64,000 nt of DNA. Source: Rhodoplanes sp. (lineage in GTDB: Bacteria; Pseudomonadota; Alphaproteobacteria; Rhizobiales; Xanthobacteraceae). The notes beneath the pieces were generated by a model, which was not told where the DNA came from, did not search any database, and saw only the letters and a list, made by a program, of their open reading frames with translations. The stretch lies in contig NZ_JACAAX010000027.1 in NCBI RefSeq assembly GCF_013377085.1, positions 1 to 64,000 of the forward strand, read 5' to 3'. Made by a program: the position numbers and the translations under genes. Each line of letters begins with the position of its first letter. Position 1 is the first letter of the stretch. Positions 21,178 through 37,713 of the stretch are shown here, in pieces.

Positions 21178-22416
21178 TCAGTAGCCGAGAGACTTCAGCG
21201 GCGGCAGGATCGCGTCGCCGCCCATGGAGCCCTGCACGGCGAACAGGTCCCACTCGTTCTTCTGCTCGCCGGGGCCTTTGCCCTTGACCAGGAAGGCGCC
21301 GTACTTGAATGCCGCCTGATGGTCCTCACGCCAGATCGCCGGCCCCTTGACGGAGTCGAACTTGCCGCCGTCGGCCGTGATGGCTTCAGTGACCTTGGTC
21401 GCGTCGAACGACTTGGACTGCTCGAAGCCGCGGAACATCTCCATATAGGCGATATAGGCGATCGCCGCGTAGGCGTCCGGCGGATAGCCGTACTTCTCTC
21501 GGAACAGCGCGGTGAAGTCCGCGGCCGACTTGGCCACGGCCTGGTCCTCGAAGCCGGCGAGGTCGTAGTAGAAGTAATGCATCGCGTAGACGCCCTGCAG
21601 GGCCTCGGGCGGCAGGCCCTTCGCCACCACATTGGTGATGAAGGCGTTGAAGATGGTCATCTCCTTGTTGAGGCCCATCTGGTGGGCCTGCTTGAGGAGC
21701 GCGACCGAGTCGGCGGCGAACTGCGCGGCGATGAACACGTCCGGCTTCGCGGCCCGCACCTTCTGCAGGATGGTGGTGAAGTCGCTGGTGCCGAGCGAGG
21801 CCTCGTCGTAGCCGACGATCTCGGCGCCGTGCTCCTTGGCGGCCGCATAGACGCCGTCACGAATGTCCCAGCCCCACGAGTCCGAGCGGGCCAGGAAGAA
21901 GATCTTCTTCTTGCCGAGCGTCTTCACGGCCTGGGTGCCGGCCATGTAGCCGACCGTCCACGGGCTGTAGGCGGCCGCAAAGGTCGATTTCGCGATCTTG
22001 CCCTTGGTGAACGCTTCCTTGGCCTGGACGCAGACCGGGAAGTAGGGCATCGGCTCGCGCGACACGATGGCGTTGATCGCATAGGCGAGCGGGGCCCAGG
22101 TCTGGCCGCCGACGCCCTTGACGCCTTCCGACACCATGTAGCGATAGCGGCGCACGCCGACGTCGAGCTTCGACTCGTCGTCGTCGACCATGCCCTCGAG
22201 CATGACCTTGCCGCCCGGCATGTCCAAGCCGCCCCGCTTGTTGATCACGTCGACGGCGAGGAGCGCGCCTTGTTTCTGGGTCTCGGCGACGGCAGCGAAC
22301 GGCCCGGTGAGGGGAAGCAGGATGCCGACCTTGACCTTGCTCTGCGCCGCCGCAAGCCCCGGCGCGAGCACGCTACACAGGGCGGAGACGGCGACCAGAC
22401 CCAATAGTCTTTTCAT
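21178..22416 (-). CDS. livK: Branched-chain amino acid-type ABC substrate-binding protein LivK
   Basis: 412 residues; GAGAGGAAG precedes ATG 22416. Signal peptide cleaved near LAAAQS (about 25). Periplasmic type-I binding fold with VKVGILLPLTGPFAAVAE and the long C-terminal lobe typical of the family. It is longer than E. coli LivK (about 370), as in the amide/urea/aromatic-acid binding subgroups. Determines the specificity of the importer encoded downstream. Confidence 0.92.
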   Translation of the reverse strand: MKRLLGLVAVSALCSVLAPGLAAAQSKVKVGILLPLTGPFAAVAETQKQGALLAVDVINKRGGLDMPGGKVMLEGMVDDDESKLDVGVRRYRYMVSEGVKGVGGQTWAPLAYAINAIVSREPMPYFPVCVQAKEAFTKGKIAKSTFAAAYSPWTVGYMAGTQAVKTLGKKKIFFLARSDSWGWDIRDGVYAAAKEHGAEIVGYDEASLGTSDFTTILQKVRAAKPDVFIAAQFAADSVALLKQAHQMGLNKEMTIFNAFITNVVAKGLPPEALQGVYAMHYFYYDLAGFEDQAVAKSAADFTALFREKYGYPPDAYAAIAYIAYMEMFRGFEQSKSFDATKVTEAITADGGKFDSVKGPAIWREDHQAAFKYGAFLVKGKGPGEQKNEWDLFAVQGSMGGDAILPPLKSLGY

Positions 22417-22636
22417 TTCGGTCTTCCTCTCTATCTAGCGATGGGTTTTATTGGAATAGGCAAGTACAACGCGGCTTTTCTTGTAGTTTTCAGCCTGCAA
22501 CACTCCCGAAGGGCCCGCAATGCGGTAAAGTGCGGCACACGCGCTCGTGCACGATCGGTGCCTCGTCTCCTCTGCTCGGACCTCCCCGGACGAGACCGCA
22601 CCCGGACGCCGCGACGTCGACGGAGGCGGATGAGAA

Positions 22637-22661
22637 AGGGGCGCGGCCGCGCCGCGCCCCT
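22637..22661 (-). terminator. Terminator between the M24 hydrolase gene and livK
   Basis: Perfect 11-bp arms AGGGGCGCGGC / GCCGCGCCCCT around CGC, 13 bases past the hydrolase stop codon, followed on the minus strand by TTCTC. The 258-base gap that follows suggests livK has its own promoter. Confidence 0.75.
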
Positions 22662-29665: not shown

Positions 29666-30444
29666 GGCCGAAGGATCCCGTCGAACAGCGGCAGGCTGAA
29701 CAAGCCGGTGGCGGCGATCAGGCCGTAGGCGACGGCACGGAACACGCGGGCGTCGGTGAGGCCGAACATGCGGGTGCCGATGTAAAGGCCGAAGCCGTAG
29801 ACCGGCCCGATCAGCAGCGCGAGGCCGAACACCGCCTTGGTGAACATGCCGACGGTGAGATAGGCCGTGATCGACAACAGCGTCGACAGCGCGAAGTAGA
29901 AGACCAGATTGGCGCGCATATGCGCGTGGTGGCCGCTGCCGCCGAGCCAGTAGAGGACCACGGGCGGCCCGCCCGTCTGCGACATGCCGCTGAAGAAGCC
30001 GGCCATCGCCCCGACCGCGACGGTCAGCGGCCGCCGCGGCTTGCCCTGGAAGCGCCAGCCCGACATCACCACGGCGAGCATCGCCAACACCAGCACGGCG
30101 ACGGCCCAGCGGATCGACACCGGGCTCGCATGCACCAGCACGAAGGTGCCGAGCGGCAGGCCGACCACCGTTCCGGTCAGCATGGTCAGCACCTCACGCT
30201 TGTCGGCGAGGCGCGCCGCATTGGGGATCATGCCGGCCGACATCACCACGTCGACCACCACCAGCAGCGGCGCCACCAAGCTGGGCGCGATCATGGTCGA
30301 GGCGAGCGGCACGAAGATCAGGGCCGAGCCGAAACCGGAGAAGCCGCGCGCCAGGCCGGCGATGAAGGCGGCCACCGCGACAAACGCGATGGCGCCGGTC
30401 GTGTAATCGCTGATGCCGAGCGCGAGCGCGAGCTCGCGCATCAT
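29662..30444 (-). CDS. TauE/SafE-family sulfite/anion exporter
   Basis: 260 residues; ATG 30444 overlaps the pheT stop (ATGA). About eight membrane helices in two repeats, with [26 protein letters not shown] near the start and [23 protein letters not shown] as the second repeat motif. Family members export sulfite, sulfoacetate or related anions. Coupling to pheT puts it at the end of the translation operon, probably by chance of insertion. Confidence 0.9.
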
Positions 30445-32858
30445 GCCCTCAGCACCCCGCCGGTGCGCTTGCCGACCTCGCCGACGATCTTGCCCGCCAC
30501 CGCCTCGATCTCCTCGTCGGTGAGAGTCTTCTCGCGCGGCTGCAGCATGACGGCCACGGCGATCGACTTCTTGCCGGGATCGATGCCCTTGCCCTCGTAG
30601 ACGTCGAACACCGTGACGCCGGCGATCAGCTTGCGGTCGACGCTCTGGGCCGCCCGCACGATGTCGGCCGCCTTGACGGCGTGGTCGACGATGAAGGCGA
30701 AGTCGCGCGACACCGGCTGGAAGGCCGCGAGATCGAGCGGCGGCTTCGCCCGCGTGGTGCGCGCCTTCGGCTCGGGAATGCGGTCGAGGATGAGCTCGAA
30801 GGCGACCAGCGGCCCGGCGACATCGAGCGCCTCGAGGAGCCTGGGGTGCAACTCGCCGAAATGGCCGAACACCAGCTTCGGCCCCATCTGCAGCGTGCCG
30901 GAGCGGCCGGGATGCAGCCAGGCGGGACCGCCCGGCTGGATCTGGACGCTCTGCACGGGCGCGCCGGCCGCCGCCAGCACGGCGAGCGCATCGCCCTCGA
31001 TGTCGAAGGCGTCGGCCGGCTGCGCACCGGTCCGCCATTGCCGGCCGATGCCGTTCGGCCGGGCGAGCCCGCGCCGCAGACCGGCGGCCGCGATGAACTG
31101 ATCCTCCGGCCGGTCGCCGCGGAAAATCTGGCCGACCTCGAAGAGTGCGACATCGGGAAAGCCGCGGTCGGCATTGCGCTGCGCCGAGGCGATCAGGCCC
31201 GGCAGCAGGCTCGGCCGCATGTCGGAGAGCTCAGCCGCGATCGGATTGGCGAGCGCCAGCTCCGGCTGGCCGCCGCCGAACAGCTCGGCCTCTTTCTTCG
31301 AGATGAACGACCAGGTCACGGCCTCGGTGAGGCCGCGCGCGGCGAGCGCCCGCTTGGCGCGACGGGTGCGGCTCTGGATCGGCGTGAGCACCGGCTTGCG
31401 GCCGCGATCCTCGCGCTCGAACGGAGTCAGCGGCACGCGATCGACGCCGACGATGCGCACCACCTCCTCGACCAGGTCGGCGACGCCGTCGACATCGGGA
31501 CGCCACGACGGCACCGCCACCTTCAGTTGCTTGGCCTGGCCGGCGACGAAGAAGCCGAGCCGGGTCAGCACGCGCTTGGTCTCGGCGAGGCCGACATCGA
31601 GGCCAGCGAGGCGCGGCAGCGCGTCGAGCGGAAAGTCGATCACCTTGTCGGGGATCGGCGGGGTGCCTGCGACCACCAGGTCGGACGGCGTGCCGCCGCA
31701 CAGCTCCATCACCAGGTGCGTCGCGAGGTCGAGCCCGGGCAACATGAAGGCCGGATCGACGCCGCGCTCGAAGCGGTAGCGCGCGTCCGAGGTGATGCCG
31801 AGCCGGCGGCCCGTGCGGGCGATGGCGATCTCGTCCCACAGGGCCGACTCGATCAGCACGTCGGTCGTACCCTCGTCGCAGCCCGAGGCCTCGCCGCCCA
31901 TGATGCCGGCGAGCGATTCGACGCCGGTCTCGTCGGCGATCACGCACATGCTCTCGTCGAGCGCATAGGTCTTGCCGTCGAGGGCGAGTAGTTCTTCGCC
32001 GGCGCGGCCGCGCCGCACCGTCAGGTTCCCGTGCACCTTGGCGGCGTCGAACACGTGCAGCGGCCGGGCGCGGTCGAAGGTGAGGAAGTTGGTGATGTCG
32101 ACCAGGGCGTTGATCGGGCGCAACCCGATCGCCAGCAGGCGGCGCTGCATCCATTCGGGCGACGGGCCGTTCTTGACGCCGCGCACCAGCCGCAGGCCGA
32201 ACGCCGGGCACAGCGACGGCGTGTCGCCGAAGTCGAGCGTCACCGACACCGGACACGGGAACGCGCCCTTCACCGGATGGATCGGCTTGCTCAGCAGCGT
32301 GCCGACATCGGCGGCGGCGAGGTCGCGGGCGATGCCCGACACGCCCGTGCAGTCGGAGCGGTTGGGCGTGAGATTGATGTCGATCACCGGATCGTCGAGC
32401 TTCGCCCAGGCGGCGTAGGGCGCGCCGACCGGCGCGTCGGCGGGCAGCTCGATGATGCCGTCGTGATCGTCGGAGATGCCGAGCTCGTCGCCCGAGCACA
32501 GCATGCCGTGGCTCTCGACGCCCCGGATGGTGCCGACCGAGAGCGTGATCTTCTTGCCCGGAATGAACGTGCCGGCCGGCGCGAACACGCCTTTCAGGCC
32601 GGTGCGCGCATTGGGCGCCCCGCACACGACCTGCACGGGCGCGCCGGTGCCGGTGTCGACCATGCAGACGCGCAGCCGGTCGGCGTTCGGGTGCTGCACG
32701 GCCGAGACCACATGGGCGACGACGAAGGGCGCCAGCAGCTTGCCCTTGTCCTCCACCTCCTCGACCTCGAGCCCGATCATGGTGAGCTTGTCGACGATCG
32801 CCTCGAGCGAGGCGTCGGTGTCGAGGTGATCTTTGAGCCAGGAGAGGGTGAATTTCAT
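30441..32858 (-). CDS. pheT: Phenylalanine-tRNA ligase beta subunit
   Basis: 805 residues, the usual bacterial length. tRNA-binding OB domain (about 40-150, [21 protein letters not shown]), B3/B4 editing region, B5, catalytic-like core and FDX-ACB anticodon-binding end ([13 protein letters not shown]...). Pairs with PheS to charge tRNA-Phe. Its ATG overlaps the stop of the inserted DUF559 gene instead of following pheS directly. Confidence 0.97.
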
Positions 32859-33364
32859 GTCGAGCGCTCACCAAGCCGACCGCGCTCTCCTCCATCGCCG
32901 GACGCGGAGGAGACCAGGGAGCGTTCATCGCTCTGTACGGTCGCAGTTTGAGGGTTCCCTCCCCCCTTGTGGGGGAGGGACAGGGAGGGGGGTGCGCCCC
33001 GCATTGCAGCCTCGGCCGTCTCTCTGATAGCCGCGACGACGCCTTCGAGATTTCGGAGGACCTGATCGTTGGTGAACCGCACGACGCGGTAGCCCTGCGA
33101 CCCGAACCAGGCATCACGCGTCCGATCGCGACCGTGTCGCGATTCGAAATCGTGACTCTCACCATCCAGCTCGACGACGAGCTTGGCGGAATGGCAGACG
33201 AAGTCGGCGACATAGACGCCCATCGGCACTTGGCGACGAAAGCCCAGCCCCTCGATCCGGTGCGCCTTGATGTAGCGCCACAGCAGCGTCTCGGCCCGCG
33301 TCATCGTCTGACGGAGCTGTTTCGCGCGCTCACGTTGCCTGTCGTCGACCCTCGTATGCGGCAT
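32855..33364 (-). CDS. DUF559 (Vsr-like) endonuclease-domain protein inserted between pheS and pheT
   Basis: 169 residues from ATG 33364. Residues about 10-120 form a DUF559 domain of the PD-(D/E)xK/Vsr superfamily: Glu25 ([11 protein letters not shown]), Asp54 (YVADFVC), Glu65-x-Asp67 (VELDGESHD) and [18 protein letters not shown]. Residues 124-137 ([12 protein letters not shown]) are simply the translated 40-bp inverted repeat, so the last 45 residues are probably acquired. The stop overlaps the pheT ATG, restoring coupling. DUF559 activity is not established; homologues are often inserted singly among housekeeping genes. Confidence 0.88.
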
Positions 33365-33411
33365 CTGCCCGACCCCCCTCCCTAGCCCTCCCCCACAAGG
33401 GGGGAGGGAAC
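32954..33411 (-). mobile_element. Candidate 458-bp cassette: DUF559 gene bounded by 40-bp inverted repeats
   Basis: GTTCCCTCCCCCCTTGTGGG begins both ends, read inward from the left (32954-32993) and from the right on the other strand (33372-33411). The 40-bp arms match at 38 positions. The DUF559 start codon is 7 bases inside the right arm, and the catalytic domain ends just before the left arm. AGG flanks both ends, a possible 3-bp target duplication. The arms also belong to a repeat style common in these genomes, so two independent repeat insertions remain possible. Confidence 0.5.
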
Positions 33412-33537
33412 AGGGCGGAATGCGCGGCACGCTCGTGCCCAAATCACCAACCGTCGTCTTCACGTCCATCGCGCTGTTCACGCCCCCCCCCGCACGCGGG
33501 GGAGGGAGCGCACGCACTCGCCTCCACGACCGGGATG

Positions 33538-34620
33538 TCACCCGCTCAATCCGCCCGCCAGCGTCGGGAAATCGAGCGGGCGGAAGCCGTAGTGATCGAG
33601 CCAGCGGACGTCGGCCTCGAAGAAGGCGCGCAGATCCGGCATGCCGTATTTCAGCATGGCGATGCGGTCGATGCCCATGCCCCAGGCGAAGCCCTGGTAG
33701 ACGTCGGGATCGATGCCGCAGTTGCGCAGCACGTTGGGGTGCACCATCCCGCAGCCGAGGATCTCCAGCCAATCCTCGCCCTCGCCGAAGCGGATCTCGC
33801 CTTTGTCGCGCCGGCACTGGATGTCGACTTCCAGCGACGGCTCGGTGAACGGGAAGAACGACGGCCGGAACCGCATCTTCACCTGATCGACCTCGAAGAA
33901 GGCCTTGCAGAACTCGGCGAGGATCCATTTCAGGTGGCCGAGATGCGAGCCCTTGTCGATCACCAAGCCCTCGACCTGATGGAACATCGGCGTGTGGGTC
34001 TGGTCGCTGTCGCACCGATAGGTGCGGCCCGGGCAGATGACGCGGATCGGCGGCGCCTTCGACAGCATGGTGCGCACCTGCACGGGCGAGGTGTGGGTGC
34101 GCAGCAGCCGGCGCGAGCCGTCCGGCTTCGGCGGGAAGAAGAACGTGTCGTGCATGTCCCGGGCGGGATGGCCCTCCGGGAAGTTCAGCTTGGTGAAGTT
34201 GTAGTCGTCGGTCTCGATGTCGGGGCCTTCGGCGACCTCGAAGCCCATGTCGGCGAAGATCGCGGTCAGCTCGTCGACCACCTGGCTGATCGGATGGATC
34301 CGGCCGCGGTCGAGCGCGCTGTCCGGCAGCGGCAGCGTGACGTCGACCGTCTCGGTGGCGAGCCGCTGGTCGAGGGCCACATCGCGCAGCGCCTGGCGGC
34401 GGGCGACGAGCGCCTCGCCGAGCCGGTCCTTGAGGCCGTTGATCAGCGGGCCCTGAGCCTTGCGCTCCTCCGGCGACATCTTGCCGAGCGTGGCGAGCAA
34501 GGCCGAGACGGCGCCCTTCTTGCCCAGCGCGGCGACCCGCACGGCCTCCAGGGCCGGCTCGTCGGCGCTCGCCGCGACGTCGGCGAGGAGACGGGCTTCG
34601 AGCTCGGAAATCTCGGACAT
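33538..34620 (-). CDS. pheS: Phenylalanine-tRNA ligase alpha subunit
   Basis: 360 residues. N-terminal coiled coil (1-90), then a class II core with [13 protein letters not shown], motif 2 ([27 protein letters not shown]) and motif 3 ([22 protein letters not shown]). Catalytic subunit of the (alpha-beta)2 enzyme. Fourth gene of the infC operon order, 106 bases downstream of rplT. Confidence 0.97.
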
Positions 34621-34726
34621 GGCTCAACCCAATGCATCGGGGCCGTCCGCTCGCGCGAACGACCCTGCAACACGACCGCAGCAGATCACGGCCTCGGACC
34701 CGGTCGAAATCCCGGACCGCCAGGCG

Positions 34727-35086
34727 TCAGGCCGGCAGCGCGGCCTTGGCCTTCTCGACGATCGCCTGGAACGCCGCCGGCTCGCGGATCGCGAGGTCGG
34801 ACAGCACCTTGCGGTCGACCGTGATGCCGGCCCGGGCGAGGCCGTCGATGAAGCGGCTGTAGTTGAGCTCGAACGGACGGACGGCGGCGTTGAGCCGCTG
34901 GATCCACAGCGCCCGGAAGGTGCGCTTCTTCCGCTTGCGGTCGCGAAAAGCGTACTGGTTGGCCTTCTCGACGGCCTGCTTGGCAACCCGGATGGTGTTC
35001 TTGCGGCGGCCGTAATAGCCCTTGGCGGCCTTGAGGATTTTCTTGTGCTTGGCGTGCGCAGTGACGCCACGTTTGACGCGGGCCAT
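34727..35086 (-). CDS. rplT: 50S ribosomal protein L20
   Basis: 119 residues beginning [19 protein letters not shown], the full bacterial L20 including the 23S-binding basic N-terminus and the globular end. Assembly protein of the large subunit. In other bacteria L20 represses the infC-rpmI-rplT message; no clear binding site is visible here. Confidence 0.98.
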
Positions 35087-35158
35087 GGCTGATCTCCTGA
35101 CAAAGACGGTTCGGAAAAAGCGGTCGGGTGAGCCGCGCGCGTGGCGCGGCGTCGGCGA

Positions 35159-35359
35159 TCAGCCGTTGGGCATCCAGTACTTGATGACCCTGTCGCCGTC
35201 GGTCTTGAACATGACCGCCGTGCCCCGGTGCTCGCGGATCTGCTTGGTCGACCGCTTGATCATGCCGTGACGTTTGCCGGACTGCTGGAACTTGACCTTC
35301 CCGGTGCCGGTGATCTTGAAGCGCTTCTTGGCGCCCGATTTCGTCTTCATCTTGGGCAT
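35159..35359 (-). CDS. rpmI: 50S ribosomal protein L35
   Basis: 66 residues from ATG 35359 ([15 protein letters not shown]), the standard L35 start and length; the frame is open a further 138 bases upstream without similarity. The conserved end is [12 protein letters not shown]. Second gene of the infC operon. Confidence 0.97.
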
Positions 35360-35625
35360 TTGGCTCGTCTCCTGGCCAGCCATGACCCGCGCCGAGCCAC
35401 GAGGCTCGCGGGGTCCGCCGGACCGTCTGGTTGAATAGAGCGCACCCGCAAACGGGCACGGTGCCCAAAAGGGCACGACACCGCCACGGCAGCCCATTTT
35501 CAGCCGGGCGGCGGGAAGGCGCGGTTATGGCAGAGGCGCCGGAAAATGGCAACTCCGGCCGCGGCACCAATGGCCTGCGGCCGGATGAGCCCTCCCGGAC
35601 AGACGCGGCGGGCCGGCGGCGCGCC

Positions 35626-36165
35626 TCAGCGCGGCGCCAGCACCATCACCATCTGGCGGCCTTCCATCTTGGGGTCCTGCTCGACCTTGGCGAGCTTCGA
35701 GGTGTCGTCCTTGACTCGGTTGAGGAGTTGGAACCCGAGCTCCTGGTGGGCCATCTCGCGGCCGCGGAACCGCAAGGTGACCTTCACCTTGTCGCCCTCC
35801 TCGAAGAAGCGGTGCATGGCGCGCATCTTCACGTCATAGTCGTGATCGTCGATCATCGGGCGGAACTTGATCTCCTTGACCTCGACGATCTTCTGCTTCT
35901 TGCGCGCCTCGGCGGCCTTCTTCTGCTCCTGGTACTTGAACTTGCCGTAATCGAGCAGCTTGCATACGGGGGGCTCCGCATTGGGCGCGATCTCGACCAG
36001 GTCGAGCCCCGCTTCCTGGGCCAGCCGCAAGGCCTCCGCAATGAGAACGGTGCCTTTGTTGGCCCCGTCCTTGTCGATCAGATGAACCTCTCGGACACGA
36101 ATTTCGTCGTTGACGCGCGGACCGTCCTTTTGGACCGGTGGCGGCGCTCTCATGGGGCGGCGAAT
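35626..36165 (-). CDS. infC: Translation initiation factor IF-3, AUU start
   Basis: 179 residues when started at ATT 36165: the sequence then opens (I/M)[19 protein letters not shown], matching the family. GAGGAG sits 9 bases upstream of the ATT but 21 bases from the downstream ATG at 36153, so the ATT is the real start. IF-3 rejects non-canonical initiation codons, and its AUU start gives negative feedback. N-domain ([14 protein letters not shown]), linker helix and C-domain ([17 protein letters not shown]) are complete. Confidence 0.95.
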
Positions 36166-36321
36166 GGCTTTGAACTCCTCTGCCGTTGAACCTGGGTCGT
36201 CTCAGTGACGTGCCGTCTCTCGAAAATGACTGCTAGCTCCGTCGCGGGCCGACCATTCGGGGGGCGGCAGGGCCGCATCGGCACAAGGCCGGCGGCCGCG
36301 CCGGACGGGGCGCGCGAGGGA

Positions 36322-36350
36322 TCAATAGAATTGGGACATTCGGGTTTCAA
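36322..36350 (-). promoter_or_regulatory. Promoter of the infC operon
   Basis: On the minus strand TTGAAA (36345-36350) and TATTGA (36322-36327) are separated by exactly 17 bases. They lie just past the stop codon of the glycosyltransferase gene, about 155 bases upstream of the infC start, leaving a long 5' leader that may carry regulation. Confidence 0.7.
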
Positions 36351-36351
36351 G

Positions 36352-37713
36352 TCAACGTTGCTGCGACTCGACCGCGGCGCCATCGGAACGGGGCACCGGT
36401 GCCACGGTAGCGAGGGGCGCGCACAGCTCGGCATAGATCGCGAGAATCCGGGCGGCCGCGTCGTCCGGGTCGAACTCGGACAGCACCCAGGCCCGGGCCC
36501 GCTGGCCCATCGCCTGCCGCAGCGCCTCGGGATAGGCCAACATGCGGACCAGCGCCGCGGCGAGCGCCGAGTCGTCGCCGGCCGGAACCCGCAAGCCGGT
36601 CATCCGGTCCTCGCCGACGGCGGGAGGCGCCAGCACTGCCTCGGGGCCGGCGGCGAGATCCGAGGCGATCACGGGCCGCGCCATGGCCATGCCCTCGAGC
36701 AACCCGCGCGGCAGGCCTTCGAGCTGGACGGCGGCGCTGACCACCACGCTCGCGGCGGCGCAATAGGCGGCCGGATCCGGGCTCGGCCCGCCGAGGCGAA
36801 CCACGTCGGCCGTGCCCGACGCGAGCACCTGATCCCACAGCTCGCCGCTGTAGCGCGAGCGGCCTCCGTCCTCGCCGGCGAACACGAACAGGAAGTCACG
36901 CAGCCCCTTCTCCTTGAGGCGCCAGGCCGCCTGCACGGCGACATGGTGGCCGCGGCGGCGGATGATGCGGCCCGGGAACAGCACCACGCGGGTCTCGGGC
37001 GTGACACCCCAGGCCTTGCGGACCGCCGTGATGCGGTCGGGCGCGATGCCGCACGGATCGAAGCCGGCGAGATCGAGGCCCGGATGCACCACGACGAGCC
37101 GCCTCCACGGCACCCGGTGGCGCTCCACCATGAGGTCGCCGATCGGCTCGCTGACGGCGATCACCCGGTCGCCCCGGGCCATCACGCCATTGTACCAGTG
37201 CTTGAGCCGGTTCTGCTCGCGGAACCCGGTGTAGCAGGTGGTGAGGAACGGGCGTCCGGTGGCGCGCGCGGCTGCCCAGGCGCTCCAGGCGGAGGCGCGA
37301 CCATGGGCGTGCACCGCGTCACAGCCATACAACCGGATCAGCCGGCGCAGACGGCCGGCATTGGCGGCGATCACCAAGGGATTGTGGCTCGCCGCGTCGA
37401 GCCTGACGAGCTCACCGCCGAGCCGGGCGACCTCATCCTCGAAGCGACCGCCCTGCGAGACCACGATGCTGCGGTGCCCGGCGGCCGAGAGCGTGCGGAC
37501 GAGATCGAGGGCGCCCTCGTCGGCCGCCCCGACATCGAGGGTCGGAACCGTCATCAGCACGGTCAGGCGCCGCGACACGGATCGGCCGGAGCGCGGCTGG
37601 TCGCCCGTCGGGTCGCCGACCCCGTTCGCATCCGAGCGTACTCCGGGGATCGACGATCCCCCCGAGATCTCGTTTGCGCACGGACCGTGCGACGCGCCCA
37701 GAGCTGCCGGCAA
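36352..37713 (-). CDS. GT4-family glycosyltransferase
   Basis: 453 residues from TTG 37713; AGGAGGG 6 bases upstream supports this unusual start, although the first 48 residues are unlike the family. GT-B fold: TVLMTVPTLDVGAADEGALDLVRTL, AVHAHGRASAWSAWAAARATGRP, donor site VVLFPGRIIRRRGHH and QLEGLPRGLLEGMAMARPVIAS with the E-x7-E pattern. Probably transfers a sugar to lipopolysaccharide or an exopolysaccharide. Not in an obvious polysaccharide cluster. Confidence 0.88.
   Translation of the reverse strand: MPAALGASHGPCANEISGGSSIPGVRSDANGVGDPTGDQPRSGRSVSRRLTVLMTVPTLDVGAADEGALDLVRTLSAAGHRSIVVSQGGRFEDEVARLGGELVRLDAASHNPLVIAANAGRLRRLIRLYGCDAVHAHGRASAWSAWAAARATGRPFLTTCYTGFREQNRLKHWYNGVMARGDRVIAVSEPIGDLMVERHRVPWRRLVVVHPGLDLAGFDPCGIAPDRITAVRKAWGVTPETRVVLFPGRIIRRRGHHVAVQAAWRLKEKGLRDFLFVFAGEDGGRSRYSGELWDQVLASGTADVVRLGGPSPDPAAYCAAASVVVSAAVQLEGLPRGLLEGMAMARPVIASDLAAGPEAVLAPPAVGEDRMTGLRVPAGDDSALAAALVRMLAYPEALRQAMGQRARAWVLSEFDPDDAAARILAIYAELCAPLATVAPVPRSDGAAVESQQR

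Follow-up and report, generated by a model that had tools for sequence, protein, structure and literature searches.

The stretch analysed here (the window) comprises 64,000 nucleotides from Rhodoplanes sp. (RefSeq assembly GCF_013377085.1, contig NZ_JACAAX010000027.1, positions 1 to 64,000); our subject is a short nuclease gene of the DUF559 family that lies in it between pheS and pheT, enclosed by a pair of inverted repeats. All three genes share one direction, with pheS (33538–34620, minus strand) upstream, the DUF559 gene (32855–33364, minus strand; open reading frame, Pfam and fold agree) in the middle and pheT (30441–32858, minus strand) downstream, where the pheT start is taken from the translation. 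A first-pass annotation of this DNA had described a DUF559 gene within 40-bp inverted repeats matching at 38 of 40 positions, and this description holds. The left arm (32954–32993, plus strand, G-rich tail inward) and the right arm (33372–33411, minus strand, an inverted copy of this repeat, tail likewise inward) complement each other at 38 of 40 nt (95%) and are separated by 378 nt; both were recovered from the inverted-pair listing, from the genome copies and with a detector of the triplex-type repeat described below, and they form the longest inverted pair listed for 31500–36500. The Pfam search assigns the protein to DUF559 (PF04480) at E 6e-37. Equally borne out are the start codon 7 bases inside one arm (ATG at 33362–33364, minus strand, in the right arm) and the ATGA coupling to pheT, whose start is overlapped by the DUF559 stop (32855–32857); the reading frame runs through the left arm. 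Open reading frames and Pfam reveal no known transposase between the arms, the DUF559 gene being the only family match there. From arm to arm the minimal cassette measures 458 bp (32954–33411); the actual ends are probably tens of bases further out.

The structure model of the window protein (predicted local distance difference test score 87) matches the solved DUF559 protein 3hrl (Z score 13.2), the homing endonuclease I-Bth0305I (10.6), Vsr (9.5) and TnsA (7.4). Mitoribosomal proteins reach similar Z scores, so the fold alone is no proof of function; Foldseek, too, listed mitoribosomal as well as viral proteins. By sequence, too, 3hrl is the closest solved chain, with I-Bth0305I a weak match (E 0.009). 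All 45 sequences compared share residues E25, D54, E65, D67 and H71, which have a putative catalytic role. The available part of PMC1189080 assigns YcjD, the E. coli family member, to the PD-(D/E)XK group next to Vsr. Pfam family, nearest structure and Vsr fold thus ally the window protein with the DUF559/YcjD/Vsr-like endonucleases, from which the gene here differs in having defined repeat ends. I-Bth0305I, its best fold match outside DUF559, differs likewise, the window gene lying outside any intron or intein and having repeat ends. Mobility by cutting is a trait of the Vsr-like homing endonuclease class.

The arms are not unique to this cassette but belong to a dispersed repeat of the BoxC/PIT/TM type. 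Searching the source genome for the core palindrome with at most one mismatch gave 57 forward and 58 reverse matches (1 and 0 for the reversed-pattern control), and within the window there are 9 strand matches with up to three mismatches, against 0.85 expected from shuffles. Both arms show the C-block, G-block and mirror-image G-block with short loops that define this design (TM detector); in the left arm (32954–32993, plus strand) the order is C-block, loop, G-block, loop, mirror G-block. The copies read in the source genome form 21 inverted doublets and 6 singles, with 12 doublets tails-inward at 77–80 bp spacing and 9 tails-outward, five of those at 104–105 bp. Judged by eye, the repeats have two end types, X-like and Y-like, one with about GGCTCYTGCGTT ahead of it and the other with about GCCGCAGCCTGCT, and 19 of the 21 doublets combine the two; conserved extensions of ~12 bp lie outside the repeats. 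A third, degenerate palindrome stands by the pheS end at 33484–33506 with no gene attached, and a repeat-like palindrome at 2543–2565 (CTCTCCCC..GGGGAGAG) is distant from every DUF559 match of the source genome. DUF559 reading frames translate the arm (for example, 32855–33411, minus strand), and a related protein, from the compared genome G020, has a similar tail, PPSLTLPRKGGG (G000 denotes the source genome, other G numbers compared genomes and L numbers loci).

BoxC/PIT/TM was described as an intrastrand-triplex motif in E. coli (Holder et al. 2015, PMC4666352). In the sections of that paper available, MG1655 has 23 copies with five inverted pairs, each of a type A and a type B; the motif forms a triplex in vitro and is reported as an instability hotspot; no transposase, integrase or other mobility gene is found nearby, and the origin is left open. 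The window arms share its block design, its multicopy state and its inverted pairs of two subtypes (A plus B there, X plus Y here). They differ in that the pairs here bracket a nuclease gene, where the E. coli motif is reported in those sections to have no mobility gene nearby, and in that the second loop of many alphaproteobacterial arms contains a further hairpin. The class is defined by a strictly intergenic position; gene context was read for few copies, and in the window a reading frame runs through one arm. What the first-pass annotation had proposed as a self-contained nuclease-plus-ends cassette is end-bounded and no scattered single gene, with a layout that recurs at other short DUF559 genes, but its ends belong to an abundant repeat class. 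The repeat occurs widely without DUF559 (57 forward and 58 reverse matches in all), which formally goes against that proposal; the gene-free copies also fit a family with non-autonomous members. The first-pass annotation had suggested looking for same-ended DUF559 genes elsewhere in the source genome. Two further bracketed cassettes exist (G000:C41:16422-16742, L003, and 22347-22658, L002), but with a different repeat family whose inner hairpin is longer, so that two nuclease/repeat families coexist in this genome.

The association between short DUF559 genes and flanking repeats is solid. Across 40 related genomes we used 73 DUF559 places, a part of the matches listed, dropping 4 of 56 short places for short flanks; an inverted pair scoring at least 15 within 150 bp of the gene flanks 48 of 52 short DUF559 genes, against 0 of 17 in a weak, mostly long-ORF (open reading frame) group. 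Such pairs occur in 3 of 840 shifted control windows and in 24 of 2760 other control windows, several of the latter being these same cassettes and others the repeats of Y1 transposase genes. The scan of named genomes kept 80 loci of 555, two with short flanks, and 63 of 78 pass a cut-off of at least 16 (62 without L194, which has a run of N); the bracketed loci come from alpha-, beta-, gamma- and deltaproteobacteria, Chloroflexi, Gastranaerophilales, Marinimicrobia and others. With the TM detector, the design stands on both sides at 55 of 77 named loci (L170, L194 and L238 excluded) against 0 of 1677 control windows, and at 33 of the relatives' 52 short genes against 0 of 401. A less selected phylum sample (29 loci, L361–L389, a part of all matches) gave both sides in 11, one side in 14 and neither in 4, hence at least one side in 25 of 29, against both sides in 4 and one side in 23 of 446 controls. 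Tails point inward at 30 of 33 relatives' genes, 46 of 55 named loci and 11 of 11 in the phylum sample.

DUF559 genes on plasmids give a mixed picture. Copies from Deinococcus proteolyticus and a Pseudanabaena plasmid have strong bracketing inverted repeats (scores 48.5 and 48), and the TM detector marks both sides at 2, one side at 4 and no side at 5 of 11 plasmid-record loci. Cyanobacterial plasmid genes (L393, 1300–1900, Pseudanabaena; L392, Picosynechococcus) adjoin CCCCC..GGGGG..CTAGGGGG repeats with a different loop, which stand on both sides of L393 by inverted-repeat score and which the TM detector, with its 8-base stems, misses at both loci; this suggests the same association with another repeat family. 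In two Deinococcus species, plasmids (L353 and L394) carry a DUF559 gene inside the same hpa gene cluster but not at the same position. Phage records gave one weak DUF559 match only.

Repeat number follows the presence of the gene. In the 40 relatives, where short DUF559 genes were counted at E < 1e-22 on the fetched matches, gene count and repeat count correlate (Spearman 0.63), with a median of 57.5 repeats in the 24 genomes with the gene and 3.5 in the 16 without; the within-family part (19 versus 5 genomes) gives p 0.05, uncorrected for ancestry and GC content. Among 150 Pseudomonadota genomes (best E < 1e-25, ancestry and GC again uncorrected), the median is 22 in 38 with a short DUF559 gene and 0 in 112 without, and at least five repeat copies occur in 32 of the 38 versus 8 of the 112. 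Within one genus, G265 has 4 DUF559 genes and 144 repeats, G269 none of either. Reversed-pattern controls in the 40 relatives gave 0–2 matches per genome, except for 29 in G017. Two further Pseudomonadota exceptions are G266 (31 repeats, its DUF559 gene interrupted by a stop) and G308 (19 repeats). G013 carries six short DUF559 genes and 21 repeats by the pattern used; gene and repeat copy numbers are not simply proportional.

Arm family also tracks nuclease phylogeny. For 48 cassettes, protein identity and arm similarity between genomes correlate at rho 0.26, where the best of 2000 permutations reached 0.16 and the best of 2000 within-genome shuffles 0.20. Dispersed repeats resemble the cassette arms of their own genome, with mean ranks of 1.8 (G000), 2.5 (G011) and 2.8 (G018) among 23 genomes (chance 12), counting distinct strings only and taking G011 and G018 from a hand-picked part of the listing; in G000 the own arms hold rank 1 in 15 of 25, always tied. 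The window's nuclease clade has four members (support 99/98) with one common arm type; those of G000, G010 and G016 lie between pheS and pheT, that of G020 between dnaK and dnaJ. Named relatives with 65–72% identity are found beside pheS at three loci (one being that of G010) and beside ureC at eight. The names dnaK, dnaJ, ureB, ureC and HD-type used here are putative and were assigned from the translations.

Cassette-free alleles, which the first-pass annotation had called for, exist at both pheS–pheT and ureB–ureC, but none gives a base-exact junction. Of the 39 genomes in which PheS was matched, 8 have DUF559 next to pheS, and 30 of the pheS loci were read. Eight of these 30 lack the cassette and show a 4-bp pheS/pheT overlap (ATGA in 6, GTGA in 2). 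The junction holds a repeat pair without a gene in G006 and G011, one repeat in G013 and a different gene in the congeners G003 and G004; in 6 of the 30 loci no pheT start was found. A single origin of all pheS–pheT cassettes was rejected, five label changes being needed on the nuclease tree (108 columns, 22 of 52 branches open), at least two of them forced by well-supported branches. One intergenic site within Rhodoplanes carries a repeat doublet in G000 and G003, and G001, G002, G004 and G005 lack it there.

The ureB–ureC spacer, matched in 113 of 117 Bradyrhizobium genomes, offers a second site in several states. G067 and G123 have 49 bp from the ureB stop to the ureC start and no repeat; nine fetched genomes hold the HD-type gene alone with a conserved leader ahead of it, and others hold the full cassette. 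By pattern, G147, G127 and G155 keep a solo left repeat, and G086 and G118 two repeats without a recognized DUF559 core. In G119 the host stretch AGGAACGAG...GTTGAGGCG is found to the left of the cassette, in G102 to its right, and in G068 it separates the repeats from the HD gene; its appearance on opposite sides in G119 and G102 is most simply explained by at least two insertion points in the ureB spacer. Read across loci L276–L284, the HD-type gene lies between ureB and ureC in many Bradyrhizobium genomes and is absent from others.

This site also bears on the extent of the unit, which the first-pass annotation had placed at exactly 32954–33411. Ahead of the left repeat stands a leader of about GTGATCYACAGTGAGGTGAGCAC, nearly complete at 9 of 13 filled ureB sites, partial at 3 and missing at 1 (L176). 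Since this conserved leader (~25–33 bp) is found beyond the left arm at most ureB sites read, the element extends beyond its arms and the unit is larger than proposed, as the ~12-bp extensions in the source genome also indicate; a cassette with private ends and an exact arm-to-arm extent is ruled out by the leader and the genome-wide copies. The AGG that had been noted as a flank repeat does adjoin both window arms, but as a target duplication it falls at chance level: an equal 3-bp flank occurs in 1 of 48 cassettes, the window's own, versus 0.79 predicted from mismatched partners, and one other of the 48 has a 4-bp match. Among plasmid records we found no cassette-free allele; the seven Azospirillum records covered to at least 80% align right through the gene, and a Sinorhizobium plasmid query matched mostly the neighbouring insertion sequence (IS) among 40 of 152 records listed.

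In E. coli the DUF559 gene is ycjD, between sapF and fabI. A TM copy, found by the same detector as the window arms, starts ~165 bp past the ycjD stop; the gene's own 3′ end has a degenerate copy only, and at the locus read no repeat was seen upstream. Of 5426 E. coli genomes, 3363 contain at least 80% of the 5.3-kb ycjD region. Two of the others, when opened, have efflux genes adjoining sapF, corresponding to the eef operon in the available text of PMC12817139. The Neisseria DUF559 gene has TM-like sequence upstream only.

We lean, with little more than even confidence, towards reading these loci as a widespread nuclease-plus-repeat mobile family that works in a RAYT/REPIN-like manner with an unrelated Vsr/homing-endonuclease-like enzyme. 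Its unit would be a short single-domain DUF559 gene between two inverted BoxC/PIT/TM repeats, tails usually inward, and its sites intergenic and often internal to operons. We infer that gene and repeats are mobilized. The nuclease would recognize its cognate repeat as a hairpin, triplex or duplex and nick or break DNA there; host repair would then copy the repeat-bounded segment, so that gene and ends move as one unit, gene-free repeats ride along, and repeat pairs and solo repeats may represent non-autonomous derivatives or footprints.

Several observations count against this family. Neither movement nor cutting of the repeat was observed in this sequence analysis. No base-exact excision or insertion was found among the junctions compared, the Rhodoplanes intergenic regions being too diverged and the ureB comparisons being between diverged species, and no target duplication above chance is seen at the arm edges, with the true ends lying outside the arms. 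In some lineages the pheS–pheT cassette may be mostly vertical. Arms are missing from 4 of 52 short DUF559 genes in the relatives and 15 of 78 named loci; the phylum sample shows a weaker effect by the inverted-repeat cut-off (13 of 29; controls 4 of 1160); and at the E. coli, A. brasilense plasmid and Neisseria loci read, DUF559 is bracketed on one side at best. Repeat-rich genomes without a short DUF559 gene occur among the relatives (G003, 99 repeats; G022, 69; G028, 33) and other Pseudomonadota (G229, 65; G224, 28). Repeat pairs enclose spacers of seemingly unrelated sequence, which is odd for copies of one unit, and dispersed repeats fit their own genome's arms above chance but not uniquely. 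Lastly, the Caulobacter DUF559 protein VsrA is read, in the part of PMC12907096 available, as a mismatch-repair enzyme linked to DNA damage.

Some of these points would follow naturally if the repeats spread by other means, such as replication slippage or host repair, and DUF559 genes merely entered, or persisted in, existing inverted pairs and mobilized nothing. Repeats in genomes without the gene, gene-free pairs between pheS and pheT in G006 and G011, and unrelated spacers all suit this explanation; it gives no reason to expect arm family to follow nuclease lineage from one genome to another, near-zero repeats in most genomes without a short DUF559 gene, or the contrast of G265 with G269, and we judge it unlikely. 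Still less probable, in our view, is that DUF559 is a structure-specific repair nuclease that resolves repeat hairpins or triplexes, is kept by repeat-rich genomes and hitch-hikes among their repeats. The Vsr/PD-(D/E)XK fold, the tie of VsrA to DNA damage and the instability and in vitro triplexes reported in the available sections for the E. coli repeats (PMC4666352) are consistent with such a role, which leaves unexplained both the inward-tailed bracketing of the gene itself and the coexistence of divergent copies with different arms, as among the six short copies of G013.

Composition might also be at work, with GC-rich intergenic palindromes arising near any small gene, and gene and repeat may indeed both favour GC-rich genomes. 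Long-ORF DUF559 genes and shifted windows of the same genomes are almost never bracketed, however, and the reversed-pattern controls are near zero except in G017, which makes chance very improbable. Repeat pairs do resemble REPINs, so RAYT-type (Y1) transposases could have spread them as REPs, with DUF559 incidental. This explanation is largely refuted: Y1_Tnp has no match in 28 of the 40 genomes, including 9 of 15 with at least 50 repeats, and Y1-free genomes hold 209 (G001), 164 (G006), 151 (G011) and 141 (G017) repeats. Scanning 14 of 16 Y1 loci with a strict pattern and then the full set with the TM detector (flanks uncertain for L124, which is at the end of its contig) placed the TM repeat at none of the 16, which lowered the already slight probability of this explanation to the smallest of all. 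Other inverted repeats (score at least 20 within 250 bp) accompany 7 of the 16 (L125, L126, L127, L128, L131, L132 and L134), several opening with the GTAG tag of known REPs; within these genomes, each of the two enzyme families thus has repeats of its own.

The nuclease-plus-repeat family that we favour would resemble RAYT/REPIN elements in its working, by analogy, and stand outside that class, because its cassette lacks the Y1 enzyme. Like REP/REPIN systems, it joins a small nuclease gene bracketed by palindromic repeats to far more numerous gene-free singles and inverted doublets; unlike them, its enzyme is PD-(D/E)XK and Vsr-like, not HUH/Y1, the gene between the repeats is DUF559 where a REPtron has a Y1 tyrosine transposase, and the repeat design also differs. 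Inverted ends and short gene-free derivatives recall miniature inverted-repeat transposable elements and insertion sequences, from which it is set apart by the lack of a known transposase between the arms and of a visible target duplication at the arm edges. CGTC-type REPs lack a dedicated transposase according to the available part of Di Nocera and colleagues (PMC3733652). Among the full-text matches listed, which cover few subscription journals and preprints, no paper links DUF559/YcjD to BoxC/PIT/TM in the text available, and an earlier description is possible.

Few roles have been tested for the common nuclease family DUF559, and its link to these repeats makes their origin testable in E. 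coli K-12, through ycjD, and in alphaproteobacteria. More tentatively, and at somewhat less than even confidence, we propose that DUF559/YcjD proteins are the missing mobilizers of BoxC/PIT/TM repeats in bacteria including E. coli, forming a new, transposase-free class of minimal element in which a stand-alone Vsr-like nuclease would recognize triplex- or hairpin-forming ends and spread them. If this is true, a lone PD-(D/E)XK nuclease would serve a class of mobile elements parallel to the RAYT/GTAG repeats of the same genomes, and the appearance of DUF559 genes as scattered singletons would be accounted for.

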